A stretch of 64,000 nucleotides of DNA from Eutreptiella sp. 'Long Island Sound 2002' (lineage: Eukaryota; Euglenozoa; Euglenophyceae; Eutreptiales; Eutreptiaceae). Below are positions 2,182-60,082 of this stretch, piece after piece (position 1 is the stretch's first letter; every line of letters begins with the position of its first letter). The stretch spans positions 56,905,919 to 56,969,918 of the forward strand of contig OZ038385.1 in the NCBI GenBank assembly GCA_964036045.1, given 5' to 3'. A program made the position numbers and the translations under genes. The notes beneath the pieces were generated by a model. That model was not told the DNA's origin. It saw nothing but the letters and a program-made list of their open reading frames with translations, and made no database searches.

Positions 2182-2383
2182 CTGATGTAAATGGCCTCAC
2201 TGGTAGAGGTAGGCGTCTGGCTGCTCACACTCAGCGTGCAGTTGCGCCGCGTGCCGGGCGGGCCTGACGTTGGGACCACGGGGGAACTGGTGACAACCAT
2301 GAACCCCTCGAGGGTCACATTTGGGCGGTACACATACGGGACCATGTACGGTGAACTCAGTGTGATGACTAGCCCCAAGTCTC
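2182..2383 (-). CDS. Exon 31: end of domain 12 and start of domain 13
   Basis: It encodes DLGLVITLSSPYMVPYVY, RPNVTLEGFMVV, PPGTRRNCTLSV and QTPTSTSEAIYI. Phase 1 joins exon 30 exactly across a 4.7-kb intron that carries the 3.07-kb transposon. Donor GTGCCA, phase 2 out. Confidence 0.83.
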
Positions 2384-5300: not shown

Positions 5301-8300
5301 ATCATTCTTGATGTCCCTCACCAGTCATAGTTGATGTTCCCTCCCCCACCAGCTCGGTCCCAATATTCAGTCTTGATTAGGGTTAGGGTTAGGGTCACCG
5401 AGCTGGTGGAACCAGTCTTGGTTTTATAACCCTTTTTAGGGTCTAGGGTGGACCTACCAGGTTTAGCAGCAGCAGCAACAAGCAGCAAGCAGCAAGCAGC
5501 AACAAGCAGCAAGCAGCACGCGCGAAATGGGGAAAAATCAGACATCCGTCGTGGTGCTTCACATTCGGCTGAAATTTTGGTGGATGATACCTATGGGTGT
5601 GAGGGACAACCACACAAAGTTTGAGCCAGAAACTCAACGGTGGCGGCCGGGAATGGGTGTCGCAAGTGGCGGACCTCAGTTTCAAAAACTGCAATTTAGG
5701 GCCAAAAACAGCCATTTTTGGGCCAAAAGAGCCCTAGAACCCATTCAAAACGGCCAAGGAAAGGGAAAGGGTGGGTGCACTCCATGTGCGGCTTGACTTT
5801 CTTGTGTCAACGAGCCATTTGCGGCCCTCTGACTCCACCATATGTCCCGGAAACGGCCCAAAAAGGCCCCCACAAGCCCCAAATTTTGTGCAGATTGGCT
5901 GGCGACAGCCACAAACCAAGAATAGGCCATATCTTTGGCTACATGGCTCAAAACGCGATTCCGAGGGCACCTAATCCACCCGCAACCCCCCTCGTTTTGT
6001 GGTTTCCACCCCTCAAAATTGCCCAAATGGACGCCTAGACCCCCGTACCCAAGCCCAGTAGGCTGCGGCAAGCTGCAAGCTCGAGCCCAAACAGGTGGGT
6101 GCCCAAATGGGTCAATAGGGTCCAATAGGGGCAGAAAGATGACTTTTCTCAAAAATGATCCTAGACCATGTGAGACGCTAAAACAAGTGTTTTTGGACTG
6201 TTTTGAGCTTGGGGTGGCCCATTTTGGTCCTCCGAAAATCCCAAAATGCCTTGAAGATGCGCTGTTTTGGGACCAAAAATGGGTCAAAAATGAATCAAAA
6301 ACACATTTTTCCAAACCTCATCCTAGACCATTTGGGGTGCACAAACGGGTGAAATGAGCCTATTTTGAGCCCATTTTGGGGCATTTTGGCCCCTCACAAG
6401 TCCACAAAAGCCTTGAAAGTGGGCCTTGTGGTGAAGGGGATCACTTGCAAGCTGATTCCACCCTGTCAACGGCCTTCAATGTGTAACTCATTGGTGTCCC
6501 TCACCATTCATATCTAATGTTCCCTCCCCCACCAGCTCGGTCCCAATATTCAGTCTTGATTAGGTGTAGGTGTCAGGTTAGGAGTAGGCTGAGGGTTGGG
6601 GGTGGGCGTTAGAGTCAAGGTTGGGTCTAAGGATAGTGTTGGGGTGCAAAGTGGACAAAATTTTCCTTAGGGCACCTTTGGTGTTCATGGAGCGTCGGGC
6701 GCCTTTGGCGCCCTGGACGCCTGAGGGCGACACCTTTGGCAACTAACTGTTGGCTGGAGGCCCCTAGGGGGGGGGGGGGGGTAGTTGGCGTCCTAGGAGC
6801 CGCGGAGTCGCCCCCCCCCCCCCCTTCCGGGCCAGTATTGGGTCTGTGAAGACTGCAATGATTGTGAAGGATGGGCCAGCCATCCTGCTCCCCATTCCTC
6901 TGCGTACGCAGCGGCTTTGCAGGGCATGCAATCTTCAAGGACACTCTGGGGACAACGAAACTGCCCCATCCGCCTCATCCTGCCACAGATGTATGAGAAA
7001 AACGTGGCCCTGGATGTGATGGCAGCGCTCCAGAAATCGTTGCAGCCAATGCGGCAGAACATACCAAGGGCATCCCCTGTTGGCGTGAAGAACACAGTGA
7101 GCTGATTGCTCGTCTTGGTGAATGTGTAGCCAGTCAATGTGCAATTGGCGGTCTGCGATGTGTTGGAGGTGGGGCACGCTGTGGCAGTGGCAGTATTGTT
7201 GGGCACGTTCCATGCCAACTGGCCGAACTGTTGCTGCGGGGAGATACTCACGGTGATGACCTCATCCCCGATGGACATCCCAGACGCATCAAATGAGAAC
7301 TGGACGTATACCTGAGCAGAGGTGCCACACAGTGTACGGCACACAGTACGGAACACAACAGCAGCACAGACAGCAATGCAATTCCACGCGTCGTGTTGCA
7401 AATCTGGCATTTTGCTTCTGTCGGTCATCTTAGCTATGTGCGGCATTGCGTGCTATGTGTCGCACTGCTATGTCTTATGTTGAGCTTGATGAGCATTTGG
7501 GAGAACAAAATAGCCGGCGGAGAACATGCACACCGCGGCACAAACTGCAACATGATCTGCGCCCAGTCCAACACACCCATACTGGGCATTTCATGCAGTA
7601 ATCTGTACCTCATTTTCGACACACGCTGTCATGCACGCTGTGCATGACAGCGTGCACCTGCAAATGCACATCACAAACACACATGCACCAACATACGTGG
7701 CCTCCATAGATCACAGAAGGAGACTGCATGACCGTAACACCCAACAATTCCAGCAACGATATGGTGTCCACTGTGTGACTGGCCTCCAGCATGTACTGAG
7801 ACACCGCCCGGGTGTTGATGGGAGTGGGACCCACGGCCGTGTCCAGCAAATTGGTATACAAATGCAACTGCGTAACACTGGCAGTCAGCTGTACACCAGT
7901 CAAATCGCAAACGTATTCTGCAGGGACAGGATGCAGGGAGGAAGTGCGATGGCATGACATACGTAGAGGAAATGCAAGGAAGACCGAGGGACAGGGCCAA
8001 TTTATTCGCTACCTACGCTACTACGCATCCTCCTCCCATGTGCACGCAATCCCAGGTTGGGACGCTGACAGCAATTTACACAACACGCTTAACCCTCAGA
8101 CAGATGCACGTGGGACTGGGAACCCGTTACAGCAGCATTCACTGGAAATCACATCGCAAAAATAGAAATGAGTTGCAGTCTTGTGACCAGAAACAACCCT
8201 TTTTCCATGACCTCTTGCCCACTGCTCGTGGCTCGCAAACGTCATCTTGCATTCTTCACCACAACAACAGGGGACAGTACGGGCCCTGCCCAGGGGAGAG

Positions 8301-11300
8301 GGGGCGGGGGTGGGCACACACAGACCGGAGATTGCAAGCAGGCAAATATCTGCAAACTGCCTGTTCTGCATCTGCATTCTGCCCAGAAGAAAGTAAAAAG
8401 GGTGGAAAGATTTTCCACCAGATTCTTTCGTACTTCGACGTGAGTTTGTTTCACTTGCAGTCCCCAATGCGCTGTGGGAAATTTCGCAGCCACAGGCTGT
8501 GACCCTGCCTTTGGTTTGGACGTGCTCTGTTGAAAGTTTCAGTGGCCTTGTGGATTGCACGGCGAATTCCCAGGAGGCCCCAGGGCCCATTTATTTTCGT
8601 ACAGCGGCCCGCGTGCGAAATTCGCGCACAACTGAAACGCAAAACTTCCGACAACCAAAAATTCCCTTTGCGAAATCCCTCCCCCACTGCCCGTGCACAA
8701 CCATACCTTTACAGACGCAGTGGTACTGTAGATTGTGGGGCTCTGTCGGAGCCCCGCCCCCGTTCAACAGGTGCAGTGGTGGGCCTGCACAATGCGCGCG
8801 CAGGTCGTCTTTCAACAGCGCCCCGTCCGTCTGTGACGTTCGCTTCTCACCTGAAACAATCTCTTCTTTGAGAGCGTCTGTTTGGCTCCTTCCCCCTTCC
8901 CGTGTATTGGTCCGGTCTCCTGATGTCACTGCTTCCGCAGTTACGACATTTTTGGGGGGAGCGGACTGTCCAGAACTTTGGCTGTTGATGCTGCGCCATG
9001 GGCCGGGCCTGAGACGCGTGGCCGTTTCTTTTTTCTTTAGGCTCCTGTCCTGACAGGGGCGTGTGGGCCGACACTCTGGTGTGCCACCTGTTGCCCTGAG
9101 TCCGGTGGCTGGCGTGGTGTCTCCCGACAAGGCCTGAGGGTGAGCATGTGCGCCCGCCACTCCGACAACCGCACGATCAGGATTGCAGGTGGTTTTGGAA
9201 AGGGGGCGCATGCCTGAGCTCTGCAAGGCACAGGCTGTCGCAGCGGTGCTGTTGTCGACGAGCGAGAACTTCACGCCGTCGGAGGCCGGAATGTTGGTGG
9301 CATCCACATACAAAGTGGCATTCCCAGGACTCATTCGCGTGGTGGACATGGACAGCACGATGTGCCGCGCAGTGCCATGCTTCGCTTCGTACGGGGACAC
9401 CTGCAGTGGGTCGGGACACAGTCAGGCCACAGACAGCCGCGGCCAGAAGGGAGGCCGCAGCACATCACAGTGCGTCGGGTCAGGGCCCATAGGTGGCGCA
9501 TGGGCTCAACAGAAACCTTTTGCCTTTCCAGGATGTCTCGCTCGCCGGTAGAACTGAAGTATAAAACGGACAAGCGTGTTGCCGGGCCGACTTACGGTCC
9601 GGCCGCTGTCAGCCGAACCCCTGTCCAAATTATTGCGGCGCAGGCTACTGCGTAGCGACCACCCAGGGTGGGGGAGGGGGAGGGTGTTACTTTGGGCCTT
9701 TGTTGGGGGTCGCCCACTTATCCCATCCACCCACCCACCCACCCACCCCGACCCCAAACGGTCCCCCCCATGGGGGCGGGGGGGGGGGGGTTGAGCTGAG
9801 GGTTCATGTTATGCCCTACCATCCCGCGTAATGCACACAAAGGGAAACGTGTAGGGCCAAGAAGACTTCAAAAATGCTGTACCCAACAGGATGCATAATG
9901 TGCAGACCGACTCAGCTCGCCCCATTGTCTGAGATTCAAAATGGGGGTGGTGTGGTGCAAGAGTTTGGCAGAAACTCAAGGTCAATTAAACATCCATGGC
10001 ACTGCTGGGGGTTGCAGCTAGCGTTGGTGATTGACTGTGTGATAGCAAGGTAGCCGCTGTGGTCCTTAACCAAGCACAGTCATGGGATGTGTTTTCAGCC
10101 AATGCATCTGCACTTCATATGTAGCGCGCCAACTCAGTGCCGCCTTGCCCAACCAAACCTCAACACCGCGAGACGGTCATCCCTACCCATGCATGGGGAA
10201 TGGTGTGTTCGAAACTTAGCATTCCTGAAGAACACGTCATGCCACACCAGCATGCACAATACACAGGAGAGATCGCGGCCCTCCGTCGCAACTTGATTCA
10301 CAAATTGAAATGTGACATATACTGCAGACTTCAACCATTTGACCGAGTCGTGCCAAACCCAAACCCAAGACATCCCAAAGCAGACCCCTCGCTCCCGATG
10401 GCTGTTGGCTGAAGCCAAATTTGGGGTTCAACCCACCCATCCCTCTCTCTATCTATCGCCCCTTGGGGGTTAGGGCCGCTGGACCACTCAGCCATGGCCT
10501 GTTCCGGCGACCCTCTCCCTTCATACCCCTATCCCTTGCTGCCCCGCTCCTGGTGCTGCGCGGCACATCCCAGTCCATGAGGAAAAACCAATGGACCACT
10601 GCACGATGCTCCTGAGCAACTTGCAGTGGGTGGTATCCCCAATCCTGCAGCAGCTTGGACACCGCAGTGGGTGTTACTGCAGCACACCGTCCCATGCATA
10701 CCACTGATGTGACTGTTGGGCTTCCGATGAGGGTAGTTGAGAAATTGTACGTGTAGTTCAAGAAGAACTTGGAGCTCAACACCACTTGCACGCTCATTGG
10801 ACCGGACATGGCAAGTGGAGCCGTGACGAACACAATGACAGTGCGGTTCAGATGGCCCACGGTGCACACTCTCACATCCGTTCCACTTGTGGGAGCGGCG
10901 CACAGTGTTCCGCTGTCCGTCATGAGTGAGCCTGCACATGTGGACGGGAAAGAGGGGGGCGAGGAGTAGGGAATCAAGAATATGGAGAGTAGCTCAGGAC
11001 ACAGATAGAGGGGACCCAAGGAAGCACTTGGATGAGAAAAGATGGGAGGGAGGGATGCACCTGAGGGCTGAAAGAGAATTCCAAGGTAGGTGGGGGCAAG
11101 GCCTGGCCGTCAGGGGGAGACAGTAGCGGTTTGAGGGGGAAAATCGGACGCCCATGCTTAACACCCGCCTTCTGCAAAAAGATTCAGGGGGGGGGAGGGG
11201 GGTTGACTGGTAGCTTTTTCTGCAGCCCCCCAGCCCCTCCCCATGCACACTCACGATATACGTAACAAACGGGCGACAGCTAAGAAGCGTGCAGCGATCA

Positions 11301-26300: not shown

Positions 26301-29300
26301 CCGGAGGGGGGGGCACCCAGAGGGAGTGCTAGGAGGTTCCCCGGGGGGCGTAAAGGGGGGGGGGGGGGGTCAGGCGCCTCTGAACAGTTGGGTTTGCGGC
26401 CCAGGTGGCCTGACTCACGCACTGCCCCTAGTGACGCTGTGAAATGCAGTGCCACAGTGTCACCCCCTGCTTCGGTTCTTGGGAGGCATGAGAAAGAGAA
26501 TACTGGATCTTTGAAACATGAGCAAGCGGAATGCACAAAAGCAAGGGGGGGAGGAACAAGTGAGGATATGTGTTAGTGGACACCAGAGGAGAAGGAAGCG
26601 TTGAAACTAGGCAAACTCTGCACTCCTCCTGAAATCTCAAATGTATTCTGAGCATTTTGAGTGTACACACATAGGGTGGGAAAACATTTTTACCCCATGC
26701 TGTATGCTCGGAAAAAAATTCACTGCGCCGGCAGTTTTCCCCAAAATCTCAAATGGCAGAACAACAGGTACGAGCACTTTTGGGGGTCTGGGGTGGGGTG
26801 GGGTGGGGTGGGGTGGGGTGGGGTGGGGTGGGGTGGGGTGTCAAAATTCGAACAGGCCACCCCCTTTGGGGCGTACAGACACATGCCCATCAACAGCAGG
26901 TGCAACATCTTGACAAAGCACACCTCCCAGTTGCCGTACAAGAGTTGGCTCAATGACGAAGTTGCCATGTAATCGGCTACAACTTGCAGGTCAATGTAGA
27001 ATGCATCCAGAGAGCTGTGCGGCGGCAGATATGCACTTGGGTGGAGCAGGCACATACCAAAGTGTGGTGCAGACATGGACACAGGGCATCATAGACTGGG
27101 TCCAAAGAGAGGGGGCACGGCTGCCTACATTTGTGAGTGTGTAGCGCAGTGCACATAGTGTGCAGTGTGCAGTGTACATACAGTGTATATAGTGTAGTCA
27201 CATGGAGATATTCCCGGGAGGTGGGAAGCTGAACACAAGTTTTGGTTTACCTTCGTTCCTGGGTTGACTACCCACTGTGCATGCATTGCACCACACACGC
27301 TGCACACTTGCACACTGTACCAGCACGAACACCACGGGCGGCAAAGCTTCCAGAACACCATTGTGAGACTGCCAAATGGTCCTCAAACCCATCAAGAAAG
27401 CTTTTTTGACCCATGCTTGATCTTTCCATTTCCAGGCATTTTTGGATCTGATTGAGGCAAATTGGGCTGTTCTCATGCACCAATATTCATCTTCTTGATG
27501 CCTCTTCTTCATGTTTTGAAAAATTGCCATTGCTGCCTACGTGTGGTTGCAAACTAGGATTTTTTTGTTTGGCTTTTCAGGAATTAAGCATGCGTGCTTT
27601 ACAACGCCGTAGGTAAAGAGAACCCACCCTTCATAACACATGCAGCTTCCCCTGGCCATTCAAAAACCCATTGGCAAGGACGCAAATAAAATTAGACATT
27701 CTTTTCCATTTAGCCTTTTTGCCAGTGGTACAGCTTTTTTGATGGGCAGTGGTACCTTGGGCACATCATTGGAGTGATTAGTAATTTTCATGTACAAATG
27801 CTCATGAAATCCTCAGGGCATCGTGCTAAATTTAGGTCAAAGAGGGGCATCGGTTTGACCGGTGCTTGCCAGTATCACCTCCATTGCTGCTTTCTCAACC
27901 TCATTGCACTTGACAATATGTGGGCATCAATCTGAGTCGGATCAAAATGTGACCACCACGGTTTCATTGTCTTTTCTTTTCTTTCCTTCGTTTCTTGGGC
28001 CTTTCTGTCCGATCTCCTAAAATCTCCCCAAACGTGATATTGTCCGCCTACGGCAGATGATGCCTTTTTTGCTGGTGTTCACTATGGGTCTACATTGTCT
28101 TCCACAAAGCCCCACAACTGAATGAATGAATGAATGAAATGCCTCACCACCTCTTCGTTCATTATGCAATGCTGTTGGATGCTAGCATCTTGTCATTAAT
28201 CTAGACTTTGTGTGGGGGGGTTGGAAGTGGACAATGCAAGCCCCTCGGCAATCTGCCATTTGCTTCTGGCGCCACTGAGGGGTGGCGCAGTGTCAGAGTC
28301 CGCTGCTGCGCAGGTGGTCCTGTTGTTAGGTCTAGGCTCCACATCCACACTGCCGTTGCCCAAGATGCCGTCGAGCTGGCATACCGAAAGAGGAGGGCTG
28401 AAGGCATGGGAATTCTTTATCAGCTGGTTCGGGTCTGAACACTGCATGCTGCTTCTGGTACCCTTGTGTTCATGAATGATGGCATGTCCATTCACCCGTC
28501 AGTGGCACTTTGGAGGCCGGGCATTGTGCGCATGCTTTGTTTCACTTATGGAGGAGTCACCAGGGAAATGGGCCACAAAAGCTTGCTACCAAATGTGCTT
28601 ACGGACCAGCTGGAATGGTGTAAAAGTAGCGATTGTATTTCCTGGACACGAAATCTTGCAGCCCCCCACAAAAAAAACCCGCTTCTGCTCGGTGCTTATC
28701 CGAACAAATAGCATCAGGCGGCGACTGGTGTTCAAGCCACATACGTTGGTCACTCACTGTATTTACTGTAAGGGCTGTACTTACATGCCTCACTCAAGAT
28801 GCGCTGTTTGGAGTCAGGTTTTACCTGGTCAGTGGAGTCAGCAACAAATCAATGGATTTTGGAGTTGTGTCGAAATGAACGCCGGTCAACTCGCAGTAGT
28901 ATGTACCTGAAGGCAAGCGAGCACAGTGGAACAAAGTGTTGTCTGCATCAGCAACCTCAAAACATGTGCCAAGAAAGAAGGGTAGTAAGACACTGACACG
29001 CAGCGTGGCCCACTGCAAGAAATGTCCAACCACCCCAAACTCCTGTTACCGTGCAAACCCATGTGCCTCGCCCCCCCCTGCCCACGGCCAGCACAGGGAG
29101 CAGGAAGGGTCACCTGAGACAGTCAGCCACACTCAGGGCTCAGGAGAACGCTCTGAGTGAGTGTTCACGGCCCAAACCGCATGTACTATCCAATGGGTGA
29201 AGCATCCCAGTCTCCGCCTCAAAGCATGCACAAACACAGGTTCGCATGCGGGGGGGGGGGGGGGGATAAACAAACGGCGCAAAAAAAAAACAGTCCTTTG

Positions 29301-29384
29301 AGTGTGGGTTTGCCTTGTCAGACCGCAAACAACAAAATTTTCGCCAGTGGGCGCATTTCGGGAAAAAAATGGACACTCAGAAAC

Positions 29385-29436
<52 letters not shown>

Positions 29437-31526
29437 GCGTGCACACACACACGCACACACATACGCACGCCTGCACGCACGCACGCACACGTGCCCGCAA
29501 CGACGCATATTTGCTTTGCTCGAAAATCAGGCACTCAGATCATACTTGAATGCAATGTACATGGGGTCGCTGCGCCTCCAGCAATTTGATAGCTCACACC
29601 GGCGGAGGCACTCACATGTGTAGCACTGACCAGCAGCGTCTCGCCTGCTTGTGTGGGACCATTTGCACTGTGAAGACACAGCAGATGCATCTACTGTGAA
29701 CAACGTCAGCGATGTTGCGAAATAAACAAATGGCACAACCCAAACACCTCTGGTTTTCACTGCGTCCCGAGCCCCCTTGCAATGTACCTCGTGACTACCT
29801 GCAATGTACGAGTGTGTGCCCTACAGCAAGCAACACCCCCACACCTGACATTCACGGTCAGTGTTCTTGGTGTTCCAGGTTCACCAATCATTGGTGCAGC
29901 ACTGACAACGGCATCGAAAATACCTGAGGCACAAAGTGAGGCAACAAGAACGTCATGGCTAAATCTTGAAAATGCTAAAACGAGGTCCAACGGGGGCGCA
30001 CCATGCACTGTGCGCAAGTTCAGCCGTTTTGGACCTCCAATCAGGAGTAAGGGGAGCGCAGGCCACCGTAAATGCATTGTTGTGCTTTGATCCCCCTCTT
30101 TTTTCAGTGGGGATGTGTAGATACGCTGGGCGAATGACACTTGAGGCAAAGCTCCAAGGAAGACGAATCAGCCGCAAGGAAATTCAACACCACTGCCTCA
30201 GCCGGCCGCGCACGCCTGACCCAAAGTTCCCAAGCATCCCCTCCCAAAGATCCATTGTTACTCGCATAGTGCGGGCTGGATCACCTCAAGCATTTAAGGA
30301 GCTGCGTCCTCATATGGTACGTTTTTCTCTTCAGCTTTTGGCCCCTGCATGTGGTTGGTGGGTCTTGGGGTGGTTCCGGTACAGTCACTGATGACGGGCG
30401 CTTGCGCATGTGCTGTACGGAAACACTTTAAATGGTGTGACAGATCTTGTGTTGCCTCCCTGCCATGGTGAAGAGCAGGTTGGTCGGCATGACTCAAGCG
30501 TGTAAAAGATGTCTGTCATTTGAGTTTGATGAATCTGGTGTGCTATGGCAGTGCACATGGCTGTGTGTAGTGGCAGCCGAGACGAATGTCACGAGAGGCC
30601 AGTGCCACTACTGGAAATGTGGGTCAGTAACGGCGAGAGAGAAGAAAGGCCAACCAATCAAAGACGCGTTCGTCATCCAGACGTACGGTGTGAAATACTG
30701 TGCCTCCATTGAGAACGTGATGTCCAATGCGCCGAGGGCAGTGGCATCTCTCACGAAGAAGAAATAGATGGTATTGGCAGTGACCTGTGCAGAGGCAGAA
30801 ATATGCTATTGGAAAATCCAATTACTGGTTCTGCCAACAAATCCGAATACCCCCCCCCCCCCCCCCGCATTGAAGGGGATTCGCTCCTCAAAAGACGAAA
30901 CGTACGTGCACCCGGAAATCCCGACCGGCATACTCGTCCTCCAGCCTTTGTGGTAACCCCCCTTCTGCACGAGAAATCGTCTCTTGTGAATCTTGTGGGC
31001 CACATGCGATGCACTACCTTCGATTGGTCTGGCACGTCCAATATTCACACTTCATTCAATCTCTTATTCCACCTGGTCCTGGGGGGTTTCAACAGCAAAT
31101 GGTGCTGGAGATATTGTTGTTCCTTCAACAGAAGAAGGACAAATCACAAACAATCCTTTTCCACTTGCGCACTCCGCCGCATGCTCCCGCCGCCGCTTCG
31201 TTACATTCCCCCAAAACCTTGAGATGGGCGACATGGGGGAGTACGCACCAGCGCTCAAGGGCTTGCCAAGGATTCACTAAGACGCCGTGCTACTTCGGAA
31301 CCATTTGTGATTTATCGCAAAACCAGATTCCATCGACCAACGCCAAAGTGCCAAAGTGCTGTGCTGGCATTTCAGATTGCGGATTGTTCCTTATCAGTGG
31401 TGAGCAGTTCCGATGACCTTGGCAACTTCCACAGCGATCGCTGGCATACGACATCTCGACGGCTCTGTCGCAGCAATATTGGGATTTCGCCTGGAGCACT
31501 CGCTGCTCTTTCCCCCCTCTGTGTGC

Positions 31527-31566
<40 letters not shown>

Positions 31567-34500
31567 TGACGCCCAAGCATTCCAATCATTGCTCAAACTG
31601 CGAGGTTCAACATTCCTACATCCTACATCCATGTGTGTGTGTGTGAGTGTGTGTGTGTGTGGTTGCGCAGGGGCTTAGTGTCATGCAACCAAAAGCTCAG
31701 GGATGACCTGAGGCATGGTACCTGTCGGGCAAGAATGGATATGAGCATGGAGAGGCATGCAATTTGCATACGTTCATGGGCGAAATGCTTGCTAGATCGC
31801 AGAAGAAGCGATTGGAGCTCATCATTGTGCAGTTGGATGCCGTCTCGGACATGTTGTGGGTGCTCCAGCGCACAGTACCGCCAATCAGGGTATTCGACCA
31901 CTGCACTACTACGTATCCATTGGTATCAATTTGCTGCGTGGTGTTGAACATCAGGGCCCAGGCCGCAACTTGGGACACAACCTGCGTGGGCTGAAGAGAA
32001 AGAAAAGAAACGATGGTGGCAACAGGGAGGCACGGGCATGGGGAGGGGACATATTGTGTGAAAGAACACACGGAACAAAAAGCAAACGTGTCGCAACAGA
32101 GAAACTGCAACCCAAGTTGCAGGCTGCGATTCATTCCCCGAGCTGCAGGGTGGGTGCAATGAGGGGTTCTGAAGCTTGCACCAAAAATGAGCGAAACTCT
32201 GTGGCTGGCAACACCAATGTGATCCAACATTGGATTGTGTTGCACAGCCCCGGCTATTTGGCCTGAAAATGCCCTTTGAGTCCGCGTTGGGTCCGTTGAC
32301 TAGAACCCATACATACCTGGAACAGCATGGAGCACACACGAACAACCCTCACCTGTGGCTGAATGCTATGGTGCTTGCAATGCTGGAGCAACACTGCCAG
32401 GCAAAAATTGACACGTCCAATAACCAAACAAAGTGACGTTTCCCCTTCCAATAAGGGACCTAATTCGACTGTGGTTTGGAACATGCAGGTACGGCTTCTG
32501 CACACCCTGGCAGAGCAATTCCATACAAATGCCCAGGAGGAAAATTCAAGCACAACAATCTGAGGCATATTTCTCTGGTGGTCACTCCACAAGATGTATA
32601 GAGACATCTCAATTTCTGAAAATGGCACACAATCCTTTTCCGGTCCAAACCACTGGTGCGTCAGAGGACTACTGACCCCTGCACTATGATCAGTCAACAA
32701 CATCTCCTCTTGCCCACCCTCTAACAAGGCGGATGTACCTCAATCAACATCACATCCACGAACCGGCCGTACTGTGATATCGGAATCATCAACTCTCGGA
32801 TTGGGAGAAAATCCGCGTGCACTTCCACATCCAAGCTGCCGTCCCCTGACGAAACGAAGAAACTCGCTTCCTCACCCTTCATACGCTACCGCAGCAGAAA
32901 CTGTATTCAGCTCATTGGAACATACTGCTGGCGTTGGGCCACCGATGCGGCTGCCTAGAGCTGAGTTTTACAGAGTCCCGCAACAGATGTGAGTGGGTCC
33001 TTGTGGCAGATGTGGTTGTGTCCGAGCCGCACATCAGATATGGCAAACTTCTATCTACTGAGGCACATGGACTTTCAATTGCCTATGGAGCGCCCCTGCC
33101 AAAGGGCTCAAATATCCGGTGACCAAAACCACGCACATGAGTACCTGCAGCTCCAACCGCCGTCGTAATTGTGCAACCTTTCCAGCTGCACAACCGTGTA
33201 ATGCCCCATAATGGCCGGCCATGGGAACCACAGTACTGACGGGCTCACCCCATCAAATATGACGTTTCGGGCCCCGGACCGACCGGGGCCCAAAGCGCGG
33301 CCCTCAGTGGGTTTCGGAGGTTCGGCCTCTCCCAAACAAAGGACCGGGTGGCCCTGCCTATGGACCACAAAGCCGACTCTTTTGTGTGCCTTGCTGTTCC
33401 CGCGTGTCCGGGAAAAGGGGCGGGTTTTCACCATCAAGGCTCCATCCGTGTGTGTTGGGGGGGGGGTAAGAAGGTCCAAGCTCAGTCCGCCACGCAGTCT
33501 GTGCCTAAACCCAATGCAGCACCACTGCCATAAACCACAACGGCGGAGTAGGTTTACCAGTCGATACATTCGGGTTTACGCACTGGTACAGGGGTGCATG
33601 CGTTTTGTGGAGACGTGCCTCCAGGCTTTGTGCGGTTGTGGTGATCTATGTGTATGGGGAAAGAGCAGTACAGTGCGTGTTGTGATGTGCAGAGTGCACA
33701 GCGTGCAAAAGGCCAAATGCTCGCACACGTCGCACCAGCTCGGTCCCAATATCAAATCTTGATGATCCTTGGGGTTTAGGTTAGGGTCAGGGGTTGGTGG
33801 CAGCCCTCTTTGCACGTACTCTCAGGAAAACCACACATCTATCATATCAGCAACATGTAGTGGACATGCACGTATCGGGGCCAGACCCATAAAATGTAGT
33901 GCAATGTGCCCCATCAATCTAGCCCCCTGCTCAAATGCTCCAAGACCTTGCTCTCGTGTGCCCACAAAAAGCCATGAGATATGGCGTAACCCTACCGAGG
34001 CAAACTGCAATGTAGTAAAATCTTACTGTGGCATATTTTGCCCTCTCTGGCGTCTGCCTCAGTGGGGCGTTTATGAACTTGTTCGAGACTGATTTGGTTC
34101 GAATCGAATGCGAATCCGGGAATAAAATGGCGTGTGGCAAATAAGCGCTCTGGCCATGCCGCAGGTCGCTTCTCACACTATTGAATTCGGCTGGGGTTTC
34201 GCAGCCTCAATCTGCCTCCGATGCCCAGTGCCTGCCCCGCCGCTCTACCTCCCTAGACACCCCTTATTGATTTTCTGCCCATTTCTGACCACACGAATCC
34301 TCCCCTCCTCTCATAGCGGAAGTGTCGAGCAGATACCATAAAGGCCAGCAATCCCGGCTGGGGTCGCCTTCAAGGCCACCATGGTGGCATTGTGTCCAAA
34401 ATGATGCCCGAACAAATCGCACACATAGAATTCTCCAGCGCGTCGACACGAGGTGCTGTTCGTGCCGTTGTTGATGGTCCAACTGACACCATCGGCCGTC

Positions 34501-37500
34501 ACTGGAGGGAAAAAAGCACAAATGGTGGGAAAATTCATTCACCATCACTCACTTGAGATCAGCGACAAAATATATCTTACTGATCAAATTTCGCTTGCAT
34601 GGCACGATGCACAACATGCACCTCTACGAAGCATACGCCAAAAATTGGCCCGTGCTCGCCTCAAGCAAAACTTGAACACAACACGCGGTCCCCATCGTGT
34701 CTTTTCGTCACAACGCGCACCAAAGACTCCCAGGTAGGAAGAATGAGACGAAAAATATCGCTTTTCGACTCGCTTGATCTGAGCTTGCTAGTGCCAATAT
34801 GTAAACTGGTACACCTTGCAATCTTGAGCGCAAGGAGTTGGGAGGCAATCATGTAGAGATCGATTTCTGGCATTACTCGCTGTCACCACCATCACCAAAA
34901 ATAAAAACCGACAGCAGAGCAGAAGAACACGAAAAAAAAAAGCATTGCAAGTTGTTGCTTTCCATTGTTTGCGGCTCTTAGCGCCCGCGCAAGCCCACGC
35001 GGGCGGAAGCGCCCAATAGTCTTTGTTGTGGTATCTGCTGGTGCTTTGGACTATGATTCTCGAGATCCTAACAAGCCCCCCAAAAGCTGAAGGTTTGTGC
35101 AAGCTACACTCGGTGCTGGTTTTCTGCTTTTGCCTATGTCATTCCGGGGTCGCCGCTCAAGCCCGGTCTCCTCGCTAGGCTATCATGGGTCAACCAGCTT
35201 CCGTTGGCCTGGGGGGCACTTTATTCGCCATGGCACAAACGTTGGCTGTGGTTTGCGCATTGCCTGCAACCCCCTTTCAAGTAGAGGCGGGCTACGTTTT
35301 CGCTGGTTGCTTGGGGTCATTGATGTCGTTGGCCTCGTTGTATGCGGCGACCATGGCCTCATTCTTGATCGGCCAGTTTCTGGCGCGCAGTTGGGCTGAG
35401 ATGATTGAAAAGCGGCCTTTTCTTATTTTTAATGTGCTATGCAACATAACATAGGAATCGGTATGTCACAACCAATGCTCCCCGTCCTCTCGGTGTACAC
35501 AATGCCTACTCACTCACAATATCCCCTGCGAAGCTCGCAGCGCGAGTCGGGTGGGCGGTACATACCAGCGTACCAATCATGTTTAGCCCACAACATACCG
35601 TGACATAGATAGCACAGCCACACGAAACAAATTTCATTCCAACAACTCGACAGTAATAGCAGCGACATTTGCCAGCGTTGCCATAATGCCGCGCGAGTTC
35701 CGTGGCACAACACCTCGAGCAACCCCCCCCCCCCTTTCCCCAAGGCATGGGACGGCAAGGGCCCTTGTAGCATGCATTCCCACCCTTTAAAAGCCCATGG
35801 CCTCATATAGTGCACGGCCTGCAAAATAGAAGAGAATCAAAACTTGGTTGAAGCCCACCGAGGAACGCACATTTGTTTGCAGAAGAAAAGGCAAAAAAAA
35901 CCCCTCGTGTTCCTCGTGTTTTTTTCTTGGGAGTAGTTGCGCCGAATGGCCGGGAGATTGAGGAGCATCACGAGTCAGCGTTTATCATGGGGCGTACTTG
36001 TATTTGGTGTGTGTAAAATTCATCGATTTACAAGTGTGCGAGCAACAATCGAAGCTGTCAATGGCAGACGTTGGTATGCTGCTGATACATTTCTGACGCA
36101 CACCACCCTATCACTGTTTGAGGCTAAATTCGGGAGCAACGTTCTTGTATTTGGTCGATTCCATCGATTTAATAGTTTACAAACAACAGTTGACAACTGT
36201 CAATCACAGACACCAGTACGCTGCGGATACAATTCTGACACATCAAGGAAAAGACATGGGCAAGTGGCGAAAGCCCAATAGGCGCTGCCAGCTTCAGACA
36301 GCAATCCATCCAGCCCCCCCCCCCCCCCCCCCGCAACGGAGGTCCCCAAGAGCGTTGAAAAAATGTTCAACACGAGAACGGAATCAATCCACCTGTGTGT
36401 GGGCAAACACACCTCCTTGAGCTCTAACAAGCAACGCTTCTCCAGACGTGGTTGGCGCACTTGCCGAAATGAGCATTGTTATGGTCCTCAGGTCGCCGGG
36501 AAGGGCTTCAAGCGGTGTGACAGTTGTTGTGACATTCAGTTGCCCTGTTGACACGGTGCACAATTAGGTTGTTTAAGACCCCAAAGTTGGCTGTCGTTGC
36601 GAAACGCACTTGCGATTCGACATATCGAGAAGGTGCACACCGATGGCGGTGACATTCGGAGTATAAACATAGTCAGTCCAAGTGTTTGCCTTCAAGGTGA
36701 ACTCAAGAGGAAGGGCCCCGGTGGTCGCATCTATGTGAGCGCAATGCACACGATTCAGCCGTGTTCGTAAATTTTTATACGACGCAACACTTCCAACGAA
36801 CCCGAAACGTTGCTGCAGTGTTAGTTTGCTTTTGGTAAAACGGCTGCAACTTGATGCCACTTACTGCATGTTCGAAATAGAATTGGCCCAATTCTGGCAT
36901 CCTGCGGAATTTGCCTTAGGTAGGGTATACTTGCAACGGCAGTTCACACGATGGACATTTTCATCCAGACGACACGTTTGCTTCAAAAGGGTGCAGCTCG
37001 TGCAGGGTGCAGCTTCCACTTCAAGCCAGTGAGTATGCACATGGTGGACAGGGCCCCAGTAAAGAAAAGCTCGAGCAAGAGCTAAGCCGTGCGCGGGGCC
37101 TGTCAACGTCGACAAAATACTGTGCCTTTCTAATAATAAGGTTGACGTGTGATCCCGCAGTGTGGTACGTGTTCCAATTTCAAGTGGAGCTGGCACGTAT
37201 GTTGCGTTCGTGTTGAGTTAGGCAGCATGTTTTCGTGCACTGGCGCAACATAGTGTCACTGATCACGTGGAGCATTAAGCACACCTGCTCCGTACCACAA
37301 ATAGACAGTAGACGGGGTGCCGGCGTTGAACGTCATTGAGCTCAAGTCACACTCTACAGAAGAGGCAAGGATGACACTCCCATATCTCAATCTCCCATCC
37401 CAAGTACAACAAAATATTGAAAACCGATGCAAGCAGATTTTCCTCAGCCGATACCTGTAGCATTTGAGCCCGCGTTCGCGGGGCAACCGTTGGCCGCAGC

Positions 37501-38034
37501 TGAATCGTTTGCAGCGTTCCACTTGAGTTGGGCTCCCTGCGAAGAAAGGTTTCATGAGCATAATGTTGCCCACAGTGTAAGTCATTAGTGACGCTTTCAA
37601 CTGGTCAAGCTGGTCAAGCTGGTCAAGAACACAAGAATTTGGTACAAATAAAGAAGCCAAGGGTGGCACAGCTGCCTCACTTAAATTGAACCAAACCATA
37701 AACAAGTCATGAGTTCAAAGTGCAGGGCCAGGACACACACCGAAGGCATTTGAGCACTCAATAGACCGCCCGCTGAGCTGGAGGAGGTGTCGAAAGTAAG
37801 TGAAAATTGCAGCTCACTCTCTGATGACAAAGAGTTGAGGACGATGGAAGTTTGTCAGAGGACCTTATAGCCTTGCGCAAAGCGTTCCTTACAACAACAG
37901 TGTTTGATAGCACAGAACAAACCTGTTTGAGCCAACAGATTTGACTGAGTGACAGCTACATTCGTGAACTCTGGAGCCACAGGCGCAAGGAGCGTCAGAA
38001 CCACAAGTAAGGTCACCCTGCATGCTGTCCCCAT
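2182..38034 (-). CDS. Giant multi-exon gene for a secreted tandem-domain protein
   Basis: About 30 small exons on the minus strand chain together with matching splice phases and give roughly 1,460 residues. The first exon carries a signal peptide; the rest is about 13 copies of a ~110-140 residue domain. Each copy shows a loop like P-T-T-S-G-E, a segment such as VSWTINNGTNSTSC or FRWNTVNNSATATSC, a second Cys 7-12 residues later followed by [DENTS]-L, then beta-like strands ending near a Gly at the next domain. Asn-X-Ser/Thr sequons are abundant, and no transmembrane segment is visible, so an extracellular or cell-surface role is inferred. I do not recognise the domain family and assign no function. 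Gaps remain in three domains (around 10.26-9.40 kb and 7.74-7.31 kb, plus the weak exon at 29.15 kb). The 3' end is not reached; the gene probably continues left of the window. Confidence 0.82.
2400..3760. other. Intron 30 of the giant gene, left part: no gene seen
   Basis: No exon or recognisable protein. It holds G-rich tracts (2,655-2,670; 2,745-2,815) and one copy of a dispersed ~40-bp repeat (2,706-2,745). Confidence 0.5.
3753..3760. repeat. Target-site duplication CCAGTATT, left copy
   Basis: Identical 8-bp word directly outside both ends of the 3.07-kb element. Confidence 0.6.
4227..5378 (+). repeat. 1.15-kb interspersed unit, copy A
   Basis: It starts ACCGAGCTGGTGG and ends with its inverse CCACCAGCTCGGT, then CCCAATATTCAGTCTTGAT. 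A (GCAAGCA)n tract lies near the start. The rest is rich in GGCCCATTTT-type words and has no conserved frame across copies. Confidence 0.8.
5379..5396. repeat. Interstitial TTAGGG-type telomeric repeats
   Basis: Three TTAGGG-like units sit exactly at the junction of copies A and B; shorter AGGGTTAGGG or CCTAACCCTAACC runs occur at 4,041-4,062, 4,215-4,226 and 6,560. Confidence 0.6.
5397..6560 (+). repeat. 1.15-kb interspersed unit, copy B
   Basis: Direct tandem copy of unit A, separated by TTAGGGTTAGGGTTAGGGTC; same ends and internal order, with scattered substitutions and a small insertion near 5,885. Confidence 0.8.
6832..6839. repeat. Target-site duplication CCAGTATT, right copy
   Basis: Matches the left copy at 3,753-3,760. 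Confidence 0.6.
7065..7311 (-). CDS. Exon 30: domain 12 core
   Basis: It encodes VQFSFDASGMSIGDEVI, LAWNVPNNTATATAC, ANCTLTGYTF and TVFFTPTGDAL. Acceptor TCTGCTCAG, donor GTATGT. The start is phase 0 while exon 29 ends phase 1, so one short exon for the start of domain 12 is missing between 7,312 and 7,740. Confidence 0.83.
7622..7654. repeat. Perfect 14-bp inverted repeat, 5-nt loop
   Basis: CACGCTGTCATGCA and its exact inverse flank CGCTG, inside the intron between exons 29 and 30. Confidence 0.85.
7741..7917 (-). CDS. Exon 29: domain 11 second Cys and end
   Basis: It encodes YVCDLTGVQLTASVTQLHLY and AVSQYMLEASHTVD. Acceptor CCCTGCAG, donor GTGTTA. Phase 1 on both sides. Confidence 0.8.
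7918..9213. other. Intron between exons 28 and 29
   Basis: 1.3-kb GC-donor intron. No protein recognised; a small hairpin around GGGGCTCTGTCGGAGCCCC lies at about 8,738-8,757. Confidence 0.5.
9214..9400 (-). CDS. Exon 28: domain 11, first half
   Basis: It encodes VSPYEAKHGTARHIVLS, TRMSPGNATLYV and VKFSLVDNSTAATAC. Acceptor CACTGCAG. The donor is GC (CAG|GCATGC); the resulting phase 1 matches the next exon. Confidence 0.8.
10265..10321 (-). CDS. Exon 27 (tentative): domain 10 Trp-like segment
   Basis: It encodes YVTFQFVNQVATEGRDLS, aligning with FRWNTVNNSATATSC though Trp is Phe. Acceptor GTCTGCAG. The lower end (donor GTGTAT) is a guess. Confidence 0.42.
10527..10644 (-). CDS. Exon 26: domain 10 start (divergent)
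   Basis: It encodes HPLQVAQEHRAVVHWF and VPRSTRSGAARDR, spaced like other domain starts but poorly conserved. Acceptor TGCTGCAG, donor GTATGA. Phases 0 and 1 fit both neighbours. Confidence 0.5.
10702..10931 (-). CDS. Exon 25: domain 9 Cys pair and end
   Basis: It encodes SGTLCAAPTSGTDVRVCTV, NRTVIVFVTAPLAMSG and FFLNYTYNFSTTLIG. Acceptor ATGTGCAG, donor GTATGC. Phase 1 in, phase 0 out. Confidence 0.8.
10932..13274. other. Intron between exons 24 and 25: no gene seen
   Basis: 2.3 kb with short open frames lacking homology, G-runs at 11,188-11,200 and 11,545-11,555, and a T9-A12 palindrome at 12,711-12,731. Confidence 0.5.
13275..13497 (-). CDS. Exon 24: domain 9, first half
   Basis: It encodes VLSFSASGPSLGDGQM, MHVTWTYAVYETVNAS and ends VLAQ; several sequons. 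Acceptor TGTGTCAG, donor GTCTGT. Phase 0 in, phase 1 out. Confidence 0.83.
13721..13910 (-). CDS. Exon 23: domain 8 core and end
   Basis: It encodes STVCPLSGSVFVCSLL, TTVSLRIVPSDALVG and TFPTLDFVEITSL. Acceptor CTTTGCAG, donor GTTTGT. Phase 2 in, phase 0 out. Confidence 0.83.
14591..14845 (-). CDS. Exon 22: end of domain 7 and first half of domain 8
   Basis: A 255-nt exon encoding KLSFAIQATSYVSNTF, LSEPVAVHGTARDLYLS and NTSGVTTGGERIEV. It crosses the domain boundary without an intron. Acceptor CACTACAG, donor GTGCCC; phase 2 on both sides. Confidence 0.85.
15068..15305. mobile_element. Short intronic element with G-run terminal inverted repeats
   Basis: Left end CCTTCCCCCAAGGGGG with a long G-run matches the inverse of the right end (C-run then CTCGGGGTAGGG). 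The 235-bp segment lies wholly in the intron between exons 21 and 22. It resembles a miniature inverted-repeat or introner-type element. Confidence 0.45.
15451..15667 (-). CDS. Exon 21: domain 7 core
   Basis: It encodes LEFNTSGVSIGGEVI, LMWSTVNDSTTATSC, KSCTLGMQY and RIYMFY. The acceptor TGTGCTCAG at 15,667 is chosen because it restores phase 1 with exon 20; an upstream acceptor does not. Donor GTCTCA. Confidence 0.85.
16561..17582 (-). repeat. 1.15-kb interspersed unit, copy C (inverted)
   Basis: It begins ATCAAGACTGAATATTGGG and ends CCACCAGCTCGGT; it reads as the inverse of A, B and D and is somewhat shorter, missing an internal part near 17,110. Confidence 0.8.
17585..17767 (+). repeat. 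Spacer repeat between units C and D
   Basis: Near-identical to 4,042-4,226 of the first composite (TTGGCCATGCCAGCCATG, then CCATTTTGGACCCCAACACT, then AGAGCTAGGGCTAGGG). Confidence 0.8.
17768..18911 (+). repeat. 1.15-kb interspersed unit, copy D
   Basis: Full unit with the same terminal words as A and B; closest to A over the GCAAGCA tract and the AACGGTGGGTACA region. Confidence 0.8.
19423..19682 (-). CDS. Exon 20: domain 6 core and start of domain 7
   Basis: A 260-nt exon encoding ENATTACDSNGTHYFCNLVG, NFTLQAQVEAY and VLWGYSTVEVPAGA. Its Ser-Glu-Asn junction completes the sequon begun in exon 19. Acceptor CATTCCAG, donor GTACAA. Phase 2 in, phase 1 out. Confidence 0.85.
20386..20554 (-). 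CDS. Exon 19: domain 6, first half through Trp
   Basis: It encodes DITALSSVVTPVEALHG, VTTNGPTTSGETIVV and GLRWGI. Acceptor CTGTGCAG, donor GTGCGT. Phase 1 in, phase 2 out. Confidence 0.85.
20731..20862 (-). CDS. Exon 18: end of domain 5
   Basis: It encodes YSTTNTFYLFFDPATSFIG, then NLTLSAYAFTNWTQALG. Acceptor GTCTTCAG; the donor lies at the edge of a (GT)n tract. Phase 1 on both sides. Confidence 0.82.
21007..21127 (-). CDS. Exon 17: domain 5 Trp-Cys-Cys core
   Basis: It encodes FRWNTVNNSATATSC and VMTCDLTAS, the clearest example of the motif. Acceptor TTGTTGCAG, donor GTATGC. Phase 0 joins exon 16 across a 4.45-kb intron. Confidence 0.85.
23101..23312. repeat. Pentanucleotide array (GGTGT)n/(GGTAT)n
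   Basis: About 42 units: a GGTGT block, then GGTAT, with GGTAC variants near 23,270-23,290 and two 1-nt phase slips; preceded by a C-run. Confidence 0.95.
25021..25119. repeat. 50-bp tandem duplication
   Basis: AGGGTGCTCTCTGACACTGA begins at 25,021 and again at 25,071, followed by the same 30 bases. Confidence 0.9.
25576..25695 (-). CDS. Exon 16: domain 5, FTNV start and SG-loop
   Basis: It encodes FTNVQFVEAVTGFVPN and LSFSITQPSTGAEK in exactly 40 codons. FTNV is shared with domain 1. Acceptor TCTTACAG, donor GTGTGT; phase 0 on both sides. Confidence 0.8.
26419..26502 (-). pseudogene. Orphan exon copy of the SG-loop module
   Basis: It encodes CLPRTEAGGDTVALHF and TASLGAV, matching NGPTTSGETIVV of true exons, with acceptor GATCCAG and donor GTGAGT. 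Its phases (1 and 1) do not fit exon 15 (ends 0) or exon 16 (starts 0), which join each other directly. No other module of a domain surrounds it. I infer a duplicated or captured exon. Confidence 0.5.
26787..26840. repeat. (GGGGT)n array
   Basis: About 11 uninterrupted GGGGT units adjacent to the right inverted end. Confidence 0.95.
26924..27014 (-). CDS. Exon 15: end of domain 4
   Basis: It encodes SLDAFYIDLQVVADYM and ends LLYGNWE. Acceptor GCCGCACAG, donor GTGTGC. Phase 2 in joins exon 14 exactly; phase 0 out. Confidence 0.68.
27015..28824. other. Intron between exons 14 and 15
   Basis: 1.8 kb. Open minus-strand frames at 28,210-28,375 look partly coding but do not fit the splice phases; a GAATn tract lies at 28,120-28,138. 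Confidence 0.45.
28825..28906 (-). CDS. Exon 14: domain 4 second Cys segment
   Basis: It encodes TYYCELTGVHFDTTPK and IDLLLTPLT. Acceptor GCCTTCAG, donor GTAAAA. Phase 1 in, phase 2 out. Confidence 0.75.
29150..29185 (-). CDS. Exon 13 (tentative 36-nt exon): domain 4 Trp segment
   Basis: A short stretch encoding HAVWAVNTHSE fits phase 1 on both sides between exons 12 and 14 and carries the Trp and V-N-T. It lacks the first Cys and uses a weak donor, so it is only a proposal. Confidence 0.3.
29381..29490. repeat. (CA)n-(GA)n-(CA)n compound microsatellite
   Basis: CA repeats, then about 10 GA, then CA/CGCA repeats, in the intron between exons 12 and 13. Confidence 0.95.
29600..29667 (-). CDS. 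Exon 12: domain 4 SG-loop
   Basis: It encodes ANGPTQAGETLLVSATHV, a near match to TNGPTTSGETIVV of domain 6. Acceptor TCTTCACAG, donor GTGTGA. Phase 2 in, phase 1 out. Confidence 0.8.
29845..29923 (-). CDS. Exon 11: start of domain 4
   Basis: It encodes IFDAVVSAAPMIGEPGTPR and LTVNV, matching the VTPVEALHGTVR region of domain 6. Acceptor GCCTCAG, donor GTGTGG. Phase 1 in, phase 2 out. Confidence 0.75.
30655..30784 (-). CDS. Exon 10: end of domain 3
   Basis: It encodes VTANTIYFFFVRDATALG, then DITFSMEAQYFTPYVW and NASLI. Acceptor CTCTGCACAG, donor GTTGGC. Phase 0 in, phase 1 out. Confidence 0.82.
31527..31662. repeat. Two (GT)n tracts
   Basis: (GT)n at 31,527-31,568 and 31,632-31,662, in the intron between exons 9 and 10. 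Confidence 0.95.
31772..31990 (-). CDS. Exon 9: domain 3 start to second Cys
   Basis: It encodes PTQVVSQVAAWALMF, TVRWSTHNMSETASNC and FFCDLASIS in 73 codons. Acceptor TCTCTTCAG, donor GTATGC; phase 0 on both sides. Confidence 0.82.
32739..32845 (-). CDS. Exon 8: end of domain 2
   Basis: It encodes DGSLDVEVHADFLPIRELM and ends FVDVMLIE. Acceptor TTTCGTCAG, donor GTACAT. Phase 1 in, phase 0 out. Confidence 0.7.
32846..34336. other. Intron between exons 7 and 8
   Basis: 1.5 kb without a recognised gene. It holds a dispersed 40-bp repeat (33,600-33,642), a solo terminal piece of the 1.15-kb unit (CACCAGCTCGGTCCCAATAT at 33,735) and a TTAGGG-like word next to it. Confidence 0.5.
34337..34501 (-). 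CDS. Exon 7: domain 2, Trp-Cys-Cys core
   Basis: Acceptor TTTTTTCCCTCCAG, donor GTATCT. One exon holds VSWTINNGTNSTSC and FYVCDLFGHHF, which are two exons in domain 1. Phase 1 joins exon 6 exactly across a 1.9-kb intron. Confidence 0.82.
35185..35454 (+). CDS. Possible VTT/TVP38-type membrane protein exon, nested on the opposite strand
   Basis: An 89-aa frame inside the intron between exons 6 and 7 of the giant gene. After a hydrophobic start it reads LPATPFQVEAGYVFAGCLG, then a hydrophobic stretch and FLIGQFLARSWAEMI. This resembles the A-G-x-x-F-G and G-R-x-L-x-R signatures of the SNARE-associated VTT (TVP38/TMEM64, DedA) family. It is much shorter than that family (about 200 aa or more), so it is at most one exon. 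A possible donor GTGCTA follows FLIFN. No partner exons found. Confidence 0.33.
   Translation: MGQPASVGLGGTLFAMAQTLAVVCALPATPFQVEAGYVFAGCLGSLMSLASLYAATMASFLIGQFLARSWAEMIEKRPFLIFNVLCNIT
36413..36544 (-). CDS. Exon 6: domain 2, first half
   Basis: It encodes QLNVTTTVTPLEALPGDLR followed by ISASAPTTSGEALLV, the typical domain start and SG-E loop. Donor GTGTGT. The 132-nt length fits phase 1 to phase 1. Confidence 0.8.
36641..36730 (-). CDS. Exon 5: end of domain 1
   Basis: It encodes DATTGALPLEFTLKANTW then YVYTPNVTAI, closely matching DATALGALDITFSMEA of exon 10. Acceptor ACATAG, donor GTGTGC; phase 1 on both sides, so the domain boundary is a symmetric phase-1 junction. Confidence 0.78.
37285..37353 (-). 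CDS. Exon 4: domain 1, second Cys segment
   Basis: Acceptor TTCTGTAG, donor GTGTGC. It encodes ECDLSSMTF then VYLWYGA, with the conserved C-D-L. Phase 1 on both sides. Confidence 0.75.
37455..37536 (-). CDS. Exon 3: domain 1, Trp-sequon-Cys segment
   Basis: Acceptor TTCTTCGCAG, donor GTATCG. It encodes AQLKWNAANDSAAANGC, with the conserved Trp and first Cys. Phase 0 in, phase 1 out. Confidence 0.78.
37741..37820 (-). CDS. Exon 2: domain 1, SG-loop segment
   Basis: Acceptor ATCAG, donor GTGTGT. It encodes ELQFSLTFDTSSSSAGG, the counterpart of the loop strand in later domains. Phase 1 in, phase 0 out; the length of 80 nt fits exactly. Confidence 0.72.
37923..38034 (-). CDS. Exon 1: signal peptide and start of domain 1
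   Basis: It starts at ATG (38034) with MGTACR, then a hydrophobic core VTLLVVLTLLAPVA and a likely cleavage point near APVAPE. EFTNVAVTQ follows, matching the FTNV start of the domain in the exon at 25,695. Two in-frame upstream ATGs (38040, 38055) are alternatives. Donor CAG|GTTTGT, phase 1. Confidence 0.75.
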
Positions 38035-41685: not shown

Positions 41686-42068
41686 TGCAATAGGTTTGGC
41701 ATAGAGAGGTACACGAAGCCATAGTAATAATAGCGCAGGCCCCCGACAGAAGCGCGATCACGCACAGCGCAAGCGCAGTGCCAGCACAGAAGTGATGAAC
41801 AGAGTAAAAGAGGACTGTACAATAAATGTCGTATGTTGCAATCTGTTTCATTATTCTGAATACAATGCATAACTGTGTTGTTGTTACTTGCAGTAACAAC
41901 AAGATGTTCAATTGATTCTGACGGACAAGATTATCCAAGTGTTCGTGGGAGATTGGGATTGAAGGATTTCAATTTTATTATGAAAAACAAAATGCCGCTA
42001 ATAATAAAAATCTCTGTTTGCAGGATTGCGGAGCAAAAAAGATAGACGCGAGGTCTGTTAGAATAATA
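41686..42068 (+). repeat. 5' LTR of the non-autonomous element
   Basis: TGCAATAGG...GAATAATA; nearly identical to the 3' copy. It contains AATAAA at about 41,820. Confidence 0.85.
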
Positions 42069-54923: not shown

Positions 54924-54964
<41 letters not shown>

Positions 54965-60069: not shown

Positions 60070-60082
60070 TTTGGAGGGGGAG
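60070..60082 (+). promoter_or_regulatory. Polypurine tract
   Basis: GGAGGGGGAG immediately precedes the 3' LTR, the position used to prime plus-strand synthesis. Confidence 0.85.

Follow-up and report, generated by a model that had tools for sequence, protein, structure and literature searches.

An intron-rich predicted gene in Eutreptiella whose repeat unit recurs in two giant reading frames

Surface proteins built of tandem beta-sandwich domains are a known kind. Titin-type arrays of Ig and FN3 domains form proteins of thousands of residues, IPT/TIG domains (PF01833) are beta-sandwich modules, and the ML domain (PF02221) is a small secreted beta-sandwich with disulfides, found in single-domain proteins. 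Among bacteria, Giant1-5 of Apilactobacillus kunkeei are reported to be extracellular giant surface proteins of 3,000-8,000 residues (PMC12863079). We analyzed 64,000 nucleotides (the window) of the euglenophyte Eutreptiella sp. 'Long Island Sound 2002'. They would hold the beginning of an intron-rich gene whose product is a large glycoprotein, either secreted or at the cell surface. We consider it probable that this glycoprotein belongs to a small family of giant surface proteins built from a previously unnamed domain of about 120 residues. The family shares a length of thousands of residues with titin-type arrays and with Giant1-5, and a predicted extracellular location with the bacterial proteins. 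It differs from both in that the repeat unit matches no Ig, FN3, or adhesin family, the window gene has a signal-peptide-like start and spliceosomal-type introns, and its paralogs carry, toward their C termini, several hydrophobic segments that could span a membrane, followed by a leucine-rich tail.

A predicted 28-exon gene and its repeat unit

On the minus strand, between positions 38055 and 2182, 28 exons can be joined with all phases matching into 4355 nucleotides that encode 1451 residues without a stop. The two other frames of the same joined sequence contain 71 and 26 stops, and, at the rate at which stops occur in the introns, a run of 1451 codons would stay open with p ~1e-19. The introns, up to 4.7 kb long, have usable splice sites in all 27 cases (26 GT-AG and one GC-AG), with donors following AG/GTRTGY and acceptors a pyrimidine run and CAG/G (the slash marks the splice point). 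G+C at third codon positions is 64%, compared to 52% in the introns. A stop lies in frame upstream of the start codon, and strong hydrophobicity is confined to residues 1-35, which resemble a signal peptide. This gene model, in which splicing is predicted, agrees with a sequence-only reading that had proposed about 30 exons, in one minus-strand gene with a signal peptide, at 2182..38034. The exon chain does lie there, but the gene starts at 38055 and has not ended at 2182.

The protein contains 11 complete units of about 120 residues and the first third of a twelfth (D1 to D12). When each unit was scored with a hidden Markov model (HMM) of the other 11 and compared to 2000 shuffles of itself, the held-out units reached 18-89 bits and the best shuffles 7-17 bits, with the unit above its shuffles in 12 of 12 cases. 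An HMM of 200 copies, seeded with the window units and drawn nearly entirely from the two giant paralogs described below, detected 25 regions of the window at E<0.3, every one of them on the minus strand; 24 fall on or overlap the exons of the model, and the other overlaps exon 12 from another frame. Many copies are interrupted by introns.

All 11 complete units have exactly two cysteines, 9-12 residues apart, which we infer form a disulfide. Of the protein's 25 cysteines, three lie outside these pairs: two fall within the signal region and the third belongs to the truncated D12. A tryptophan precedes the first cysteine in eight of the 11. The Trp-sequon-Cys motif by which the repeat had been recognized is present in the gene, yet a pattern of this kind has 16 minus-strand matches in the window, and only six, the same six examples, fall in the gene. 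The motif alone would therefore not prove a repeat; the alignment does. Thus the repeat is real, although the window holds 12 units rather than the roughly 13 first counted, and the gene continues beyond it. The protein also has 41 N-glycosylation sequons compared to 16.8 +/- 3.5 in 5000 shuffles (maximum 30). This high predicted potential for N-glycosylation fits the large glycosylated ectodomain that had been proposed.

The exons are listed below. Each rests on the exon chain, with additional evidence in brackets.

37923..38055, minus strand: exon 1, start codon and signal-peptide-like stretch, residues 1-44 (hydrophobicity, in-frame stop upstream)
37741..37820, minus strand: exon 2, start of D1 (class A)
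37455..37536, minus strand: exon 3, D1, tryptophan, sequon, and first cysteine (HMM match)
37285..37353, minus strand: exon 4, D1, second cysteine (HMM match)
36641..36730, minus strand: exon 5, last part of D1 and linker (HMM match)
36413..36544, minus strand: exon 6, first half of D2 (class B) (HMM match)
34337..34501, minus strand: exon 7, D2, both cysteines (HMM match)
32739..32845, minus strand: exon 8, last part of D2 and linker (weak HMM match, E 0.008)
31772..31990, minus strand: exon 9, D3 (class A) (HMM match)
30655..30784, minus strand: exon 10, end of D3 and linker (HMM match)
29845..29923, minus strand: exon 11, start of D4 (class B)
29546..29667, minus strand: exon 12, middle of D4, first cysteine (HMM match)
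28825..28906, minus strand: exon 13, D4, second cysteine (HMM match)
26924..27014, minus strand: exon 14, last part of D4 and linker (weak HMM match, E 0.029)
25576..25695, minus strand: exon 15, start of D5 (class A) (HMM match)
21007..21127, minus strand: exon 16, D5, both cysteines (HMM match)
20731..20862, minus strand: exon 17, end of D5 and linker (HMM match)
20386..20554, minus strand: exon 18, first half of D6 (class B) (HMM match)
19423..19682, minus strand: exon 19, second half of D6, both cysteines, and linker (HMM match)
15451..15667, minus strand: exon 20, most of D7 (class A) (AlphaFold2 model)
14591..14845, minus strand: exon 21, end of D7, linker, and start of D8 (class B) (HMM match)
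13721..13910, minus strand: exon 22, second half of D8, both cysteines (HMM match)
13275..13497, minus strand: exon 23, first half of D9 (class A) (HMM match)
10702..10931, minus strand: exon 24, second half of D9, both cysteines, and linker (HMM match)
9214..9400, minus strand: exon 25, first half of D10 (class B), first cysteine, with the GC-AG intron next (HMM match)
7697..7917, minus strand: exon 26, second half of D10, second cysteine, and linker (HMM match)
7065..7311, minus strand: exon 27, most of D11 (class A) (AlphaFold2 model)
2182..2383, minus strand: exon 28, end of D11, linker, and start of D12 (class B) (flanking sequence)

The donor consensus is unusual in having T at +4 and G at +5, besides the one GC-AG intron. 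Introns 27 (4035-6577) and 19 (16553-18921) contain direct and inverted copies of a dispersed repeat of about 1.2 kb, 88-97% identical, some with short CCCTAA runs, and intron 15 contains about 42 copies of the pentamer TGGTA (23102-23313).

Giant paralogs and the surroundings of the gene

The window corresponds to positions 56905919-56969918 of contig OZ038385.1 (C8) in a genome of 2.28 Gb and 2205 contigs. Two other loci carry much longer arrays of the same unit. An open frame on the minus strand of C15 (15427153-15479391) spans 52 kb and 17,413 residues (1.87 MDa) with 102 copies, and one on the plus strand of C3 (20414820-20454296) spans 39 kb and 13,159 residues (1.42 MDa) with 70, as counted with an iterated HMM at E<=0.05. 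Both run from stop to stop with exon starts not fixed, and the masses are those of the open frames alone. Two frames upstream of the C3 frame hold 8 and 13 further copies, for 193 counted at the two loci, and more upstream frames with copies occur at both. When one giant copy was searched against the genome, each of the 122 matches at E<=0.01 fell at one of these loci; this search missed the window's own exons, and intron-rich relatives elsewhere could escape likewise. Searches with the window units also gave weak matches at C9:15794303-15794845 (E 0.0036, open frame of 1292 residues) and C3:157867548-157868303 (E 0.037, open frame of 3446 residues).

Profiles of the window and giant units matched each other with a profile-profile probability of 99.6 (E 7e-25). 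The best giant match of the complete window units had E values of 2e-9 to 1e-19 for 10 of 11 and 2.6e-4 for D9. Exactly two cysteines occur in 75 of the 102 C15 copies and 49 of the 70 C3 copies, most commonly nine residues apart (36/75 and 30/49); the remaining copies have three to five, and one has none. Both cysteines are invariant in 50 of 50 aligned copies, chosen from the 74 of 172 that scored at least 100 bits, had at least 106 residues, and lay whole in the chosen loci. By homology of its units, the window gene is a member of the giant repeat-array family of its genome. The family is small, its products are probably giant surface proteins, and the window gene represents it in an intron-rich form.

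The window units fall into two alternating classes, with odd units in class A and even units in class B, forming six A-B pairs. Identity is 19-34% within class A, 22-37% within class B, and 13-23% between classes (4-27% in comparisons involving the partial D12). The same-class HMM outscored the other-class HMM for 12 of 12 units, and in a tree of the 11 complete units the A/B split had support of 100/99 and appeared in all 200 bootstrap trees, with the order inside each class not resolved. The classes are still related to each other (profile comparison, probability 97.3). A phase-1 intron marks the A-to-B junction in pairs 1-3 and a phase-0 intron the B-to-A junction after pairs 1, 2, and 4; many other intron positions vary between units. 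On these alignments, the real repeat unit is the A-B pair and not the single domain. The array appears to have grown by doubling of the pair. C15 copy 64 ranks first among the 172 giant copies for each of the five complete class-B units, suggesting that the window B units trace to one giant copy. The pair that was repeatedly doubled to form the array would then have had a B half similar to this copy.

In both giants, the repeats are followed by several VCY-motif cysteine domains, TIG domains, a run of EGF modules, hydrophobic segments, an EF-hand-like loop, a proline-rich stretch, and a leucine-rich tail. TIG scored 59.9 and 53.0 bits (cut-off 20.9) and EGF_Teneurin 38.4 and 29.4 bits (cut-off 24.3). 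There are six to seven hydrophobic segments at residues 16652-17021 of C15 and six at 12394-12761 of C3. This membrane region has sub-threshold similarity to TRP-type membrane proteins (PF06011) with a DUF7630-like stretch, extending across 132 residues in one match and 259 in the other (E 1.9e-5 and 3.5e-4, respectively); we know of no counterpart in that family to an ectodomain of about 70-100 repeats. The leucine-rich tails of the two giants look very similar. The C15 and C3 proteins thus seem, from their predicted segments, to end in a membrane anchor, and since the paralog tails have hydrophobic segments, the family is probably surface-anchored.

The VCY domain is a second repeated, cysteine-containing domain, seen by eye at about 13100-13950 of C15 and 8773-9640 of C3, after most copies of the main repeat and before the TIG/EGF part. 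Across the genome, the membrane region matches 47 places. Eight of these lie within further open frames, 3770-8233 residues long, indicating that giant proteins of that membrane type are common in this genome; the repeat was matched only at C15 and C3 among the 47. These relatives of the membrane region perhaps form a large family of giant membrane proteins.

Set beside the uninterrupted 39-52 kb frames of the giants, the 28 small exons, the dispersed repeats in introns 19 and 27, and a 3′ end not found within 66 kb downstream could suggest decay, with the window gene a relic of a giant gene that insertions have broken up and that is no longer expressed. Against decay stand the stop-free frame and its usable splice sites, retention of both cysteines in every complete unit, and a third-position G+C of 0.64 versus 0.52 in introns, and we consider a relic very improbable.

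The window also contains mobile elements and other repeats. A Ty3/gypsy-type long terminal repeat (LTR) element lies at 49762-60615, and as its 533-bp LTRs (49762-50294 and 60083-60615) are 99.8% identical, it inserted recently. It comprises an open reading frame with no family assigned (50101-53163), a frame with a Dam-like methylase match under threshold (53164-54969), and a reverse transcriptase-RNase H-integrase-chromodomain frame (54833-58432), with a run of 36 T where the last two overlap. Gypsy-like fragments on the minus strand have an integrase-like match just under cut-off (45453-46787) and RNase H domains with an integrase-like match (61660-63342). A 383-bp direct repeat (41686-42068 and 44414-44796, 97% identical) surrounds about 2.3 kb and is perhaps a small LTR element, and a tandem array with 65-bp and higher-order units occupies 877-1459.

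Family and fold of the repeat unit

The unit had been proposed to be a domain without a named family, and an HMM of its copies as a way to check this. Membership in a Pfam-A family was judged by whether a sequence reached the family's curated gathering cut-off. Neither four joined window pieces nor six giant stretches (1250-2200 residues) matched any family at cut-off; nearest was the ML domain, with 20.5 bits versus 22.7 in one giant stretch of 1349 residues. Searched singly, the 12 window units gave a best E of 0.048, and the 50 giant copies a best E of 0.0035, to RepB_primase in one copy. NCBIfam and PHROGs returned nothing convincing (best E 0.047 and 0.025). Searches against 5.8 billion predicted proteins found nothing other than open reading frames of the window itself, with a tool that is length-limited and may cover eukaryotes poorly. 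The proposal therefore stands, and the copies were not placed in a known Pfam family.

The repeat domain could instead be a diverged member of a known superfamily (ML, IPT/TIG, or another Ig-like group) beyond the reach of sequence profiles. A beta-sandwich is predicted for the unit, and in addition to the near-threshold stretch, weak ML matches occurred in three of the 50 giant copies (best E 0.009). IPT/TIG matched one of the 12 window units (E 0.076), and true TIG domains follow the repeats in both giants. However, none of the six giant stretches matched IPT/TIG at E<=0.1, and the unit differs from it in its conserved tryptophan and its cysteine pair, mostly 9-12 residues apart; unlike the single-domain ML proteins, the unit is arrayed. 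We give this possibility appreciable weight, at about one-third of our belief.

AlphaFold2 models of single exons, which are without the last strand or strands encoded in neighboring exons, each showed five strands. The mean predicted local distance difference test score was 85.8 for exon 20 (71 residues; 86-50 across the five models of the run) and 81.0 for exon 27 (82 residues; 81-69). Comparison of these partial domains with Ig-like and jelly-roll beta-sandwiches gave weak structural matches. Thus modeling, which had also been suggested as a check, makes a beta-sandwich plausible, but with incomplete models and weak fold matches.

Possible membrane anchorage, proposed role, and significance

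Past the window, hand-read exons continue the gene. An exon at about C8:56905738-56905531, roughly 180-390 bases before the window start, completes D12, and two more (about 56902121-56902017 and 56900808-56900504) encode D13 and the start of a fourteenth unit. No further repeat copies were found down to C8:56839919 at E<0.3.

Several results weigh against a surface glycoprotein of the giant family. The tails of the giants were not found by tblastn in the 66 kb downstream, where one repeat unit matched with E 0.057, and the membrane region had no match on C8 near 56.9 Mb. In the giants themselves, TRP scored below cut-off (24.1 and 20.0 bits versus 28.5), as did the EF-hand (20.5 bits versus 25.4 in C3; the C15 loop was seen by eye). 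LRR_6 reached 18.8 bits versus a cut-off of 23.4 in the C15 tail, and no leucine-rich repeat (LRR) family matched the C3 tail at E<=1. C15 copy 65, the neighbor of copy 64, is the best match of only one of six class-A units (D5), the other five matching various giant copies best, and the giants show no strict A-B alternation. Finally, the exon models are incomplete and their confidence differs widely from model to model. Because the LRR evidence is weak and the class-A matches are scattered, we lowered our confidence very slightly, and we still favor membership in the giant family.

The missing tail also fits a purely secreted protein, a short offshoot of the giants minus their membrane part that would serve as a coat, matrix, or soluble binder. 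Consistent with this, the signal-peptide-like start is followed by no second strongly hydrophobic segment in the 1451 residues. On the other side, with introns of up to 4.7 kb, the gene may outrun 66 kb, and short tail exons may score below threshold. A faint resemblance to the post-repeat VCY domains of the giants was also seen in a candidate exon at about C8:56890773-56890537 (best blastp hit, E 0.29). We regard a purely secreted product as possible but unlikely; both the secretion first proposed and membrane anchorage still stand as predictions, and the gene product may be a receptor shorter than the giants, a soluble binder, or a coat protein.

If the gene does belong to the family of giant surface proteins, its modules would form a glycosylated rod reaching out from the cell. 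Ig-type domains measure perhaps 4 nm per module, and the rod might extend tens of nanometers for the window protein and several hundred for the giants. It would bind other cells, a coat, or prey, and in the giants the binding or pull would pass to the membrane part and the EF-hand-like cytoplasmic loop. In the giants, a long ectodomain is followed by TIG/EGF, a membrane part, an EF-hand-like loop, and a leucine-rich tail, an order that matches a receptor for adhesion or force. By analogy with that architecture, which agrees with the adhesion or recognition first suggested, adhesion or long-range sensing is the likeliest role, with about an even chance of being correct; we consider the structural claims more likely than that.

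A bolder version, which we consider doubtful, is that a lineage-specific disulfide-bonded beta-sandwich domain was amplified to about 100 copies in some of the longest uninterrupted coding regions known (52 kb, 1.87 MDa). These would encode the longest-reaching microbial adhesion or force receptors, linked to calcium signaling by the TRP-like part and EF-hand, with the window gene a shorter, intron-rich spin-off by repeated pair doubling.

Compared to known tandem beta-sandwich surface proteins, what looks new is the domain, the number of copies it reaches in uninterrupted frames, and its pairing with this membrane part. If the proposed reading is true, there would be a new extracellular domain family, with 193 copies at two loci in addition to those of the window gene. 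Two proteins would have at least about 13,000 and 17,000 residues, to our knowledge among the largest known. The same domain, in open frames of 39-52 kb and in a pair-doubled, intron-rich array, would offer a clean case of how giant repeat proteins originate, and the architecture common to the paralogs would make long-range adhesion or force sensing a testable proposal.
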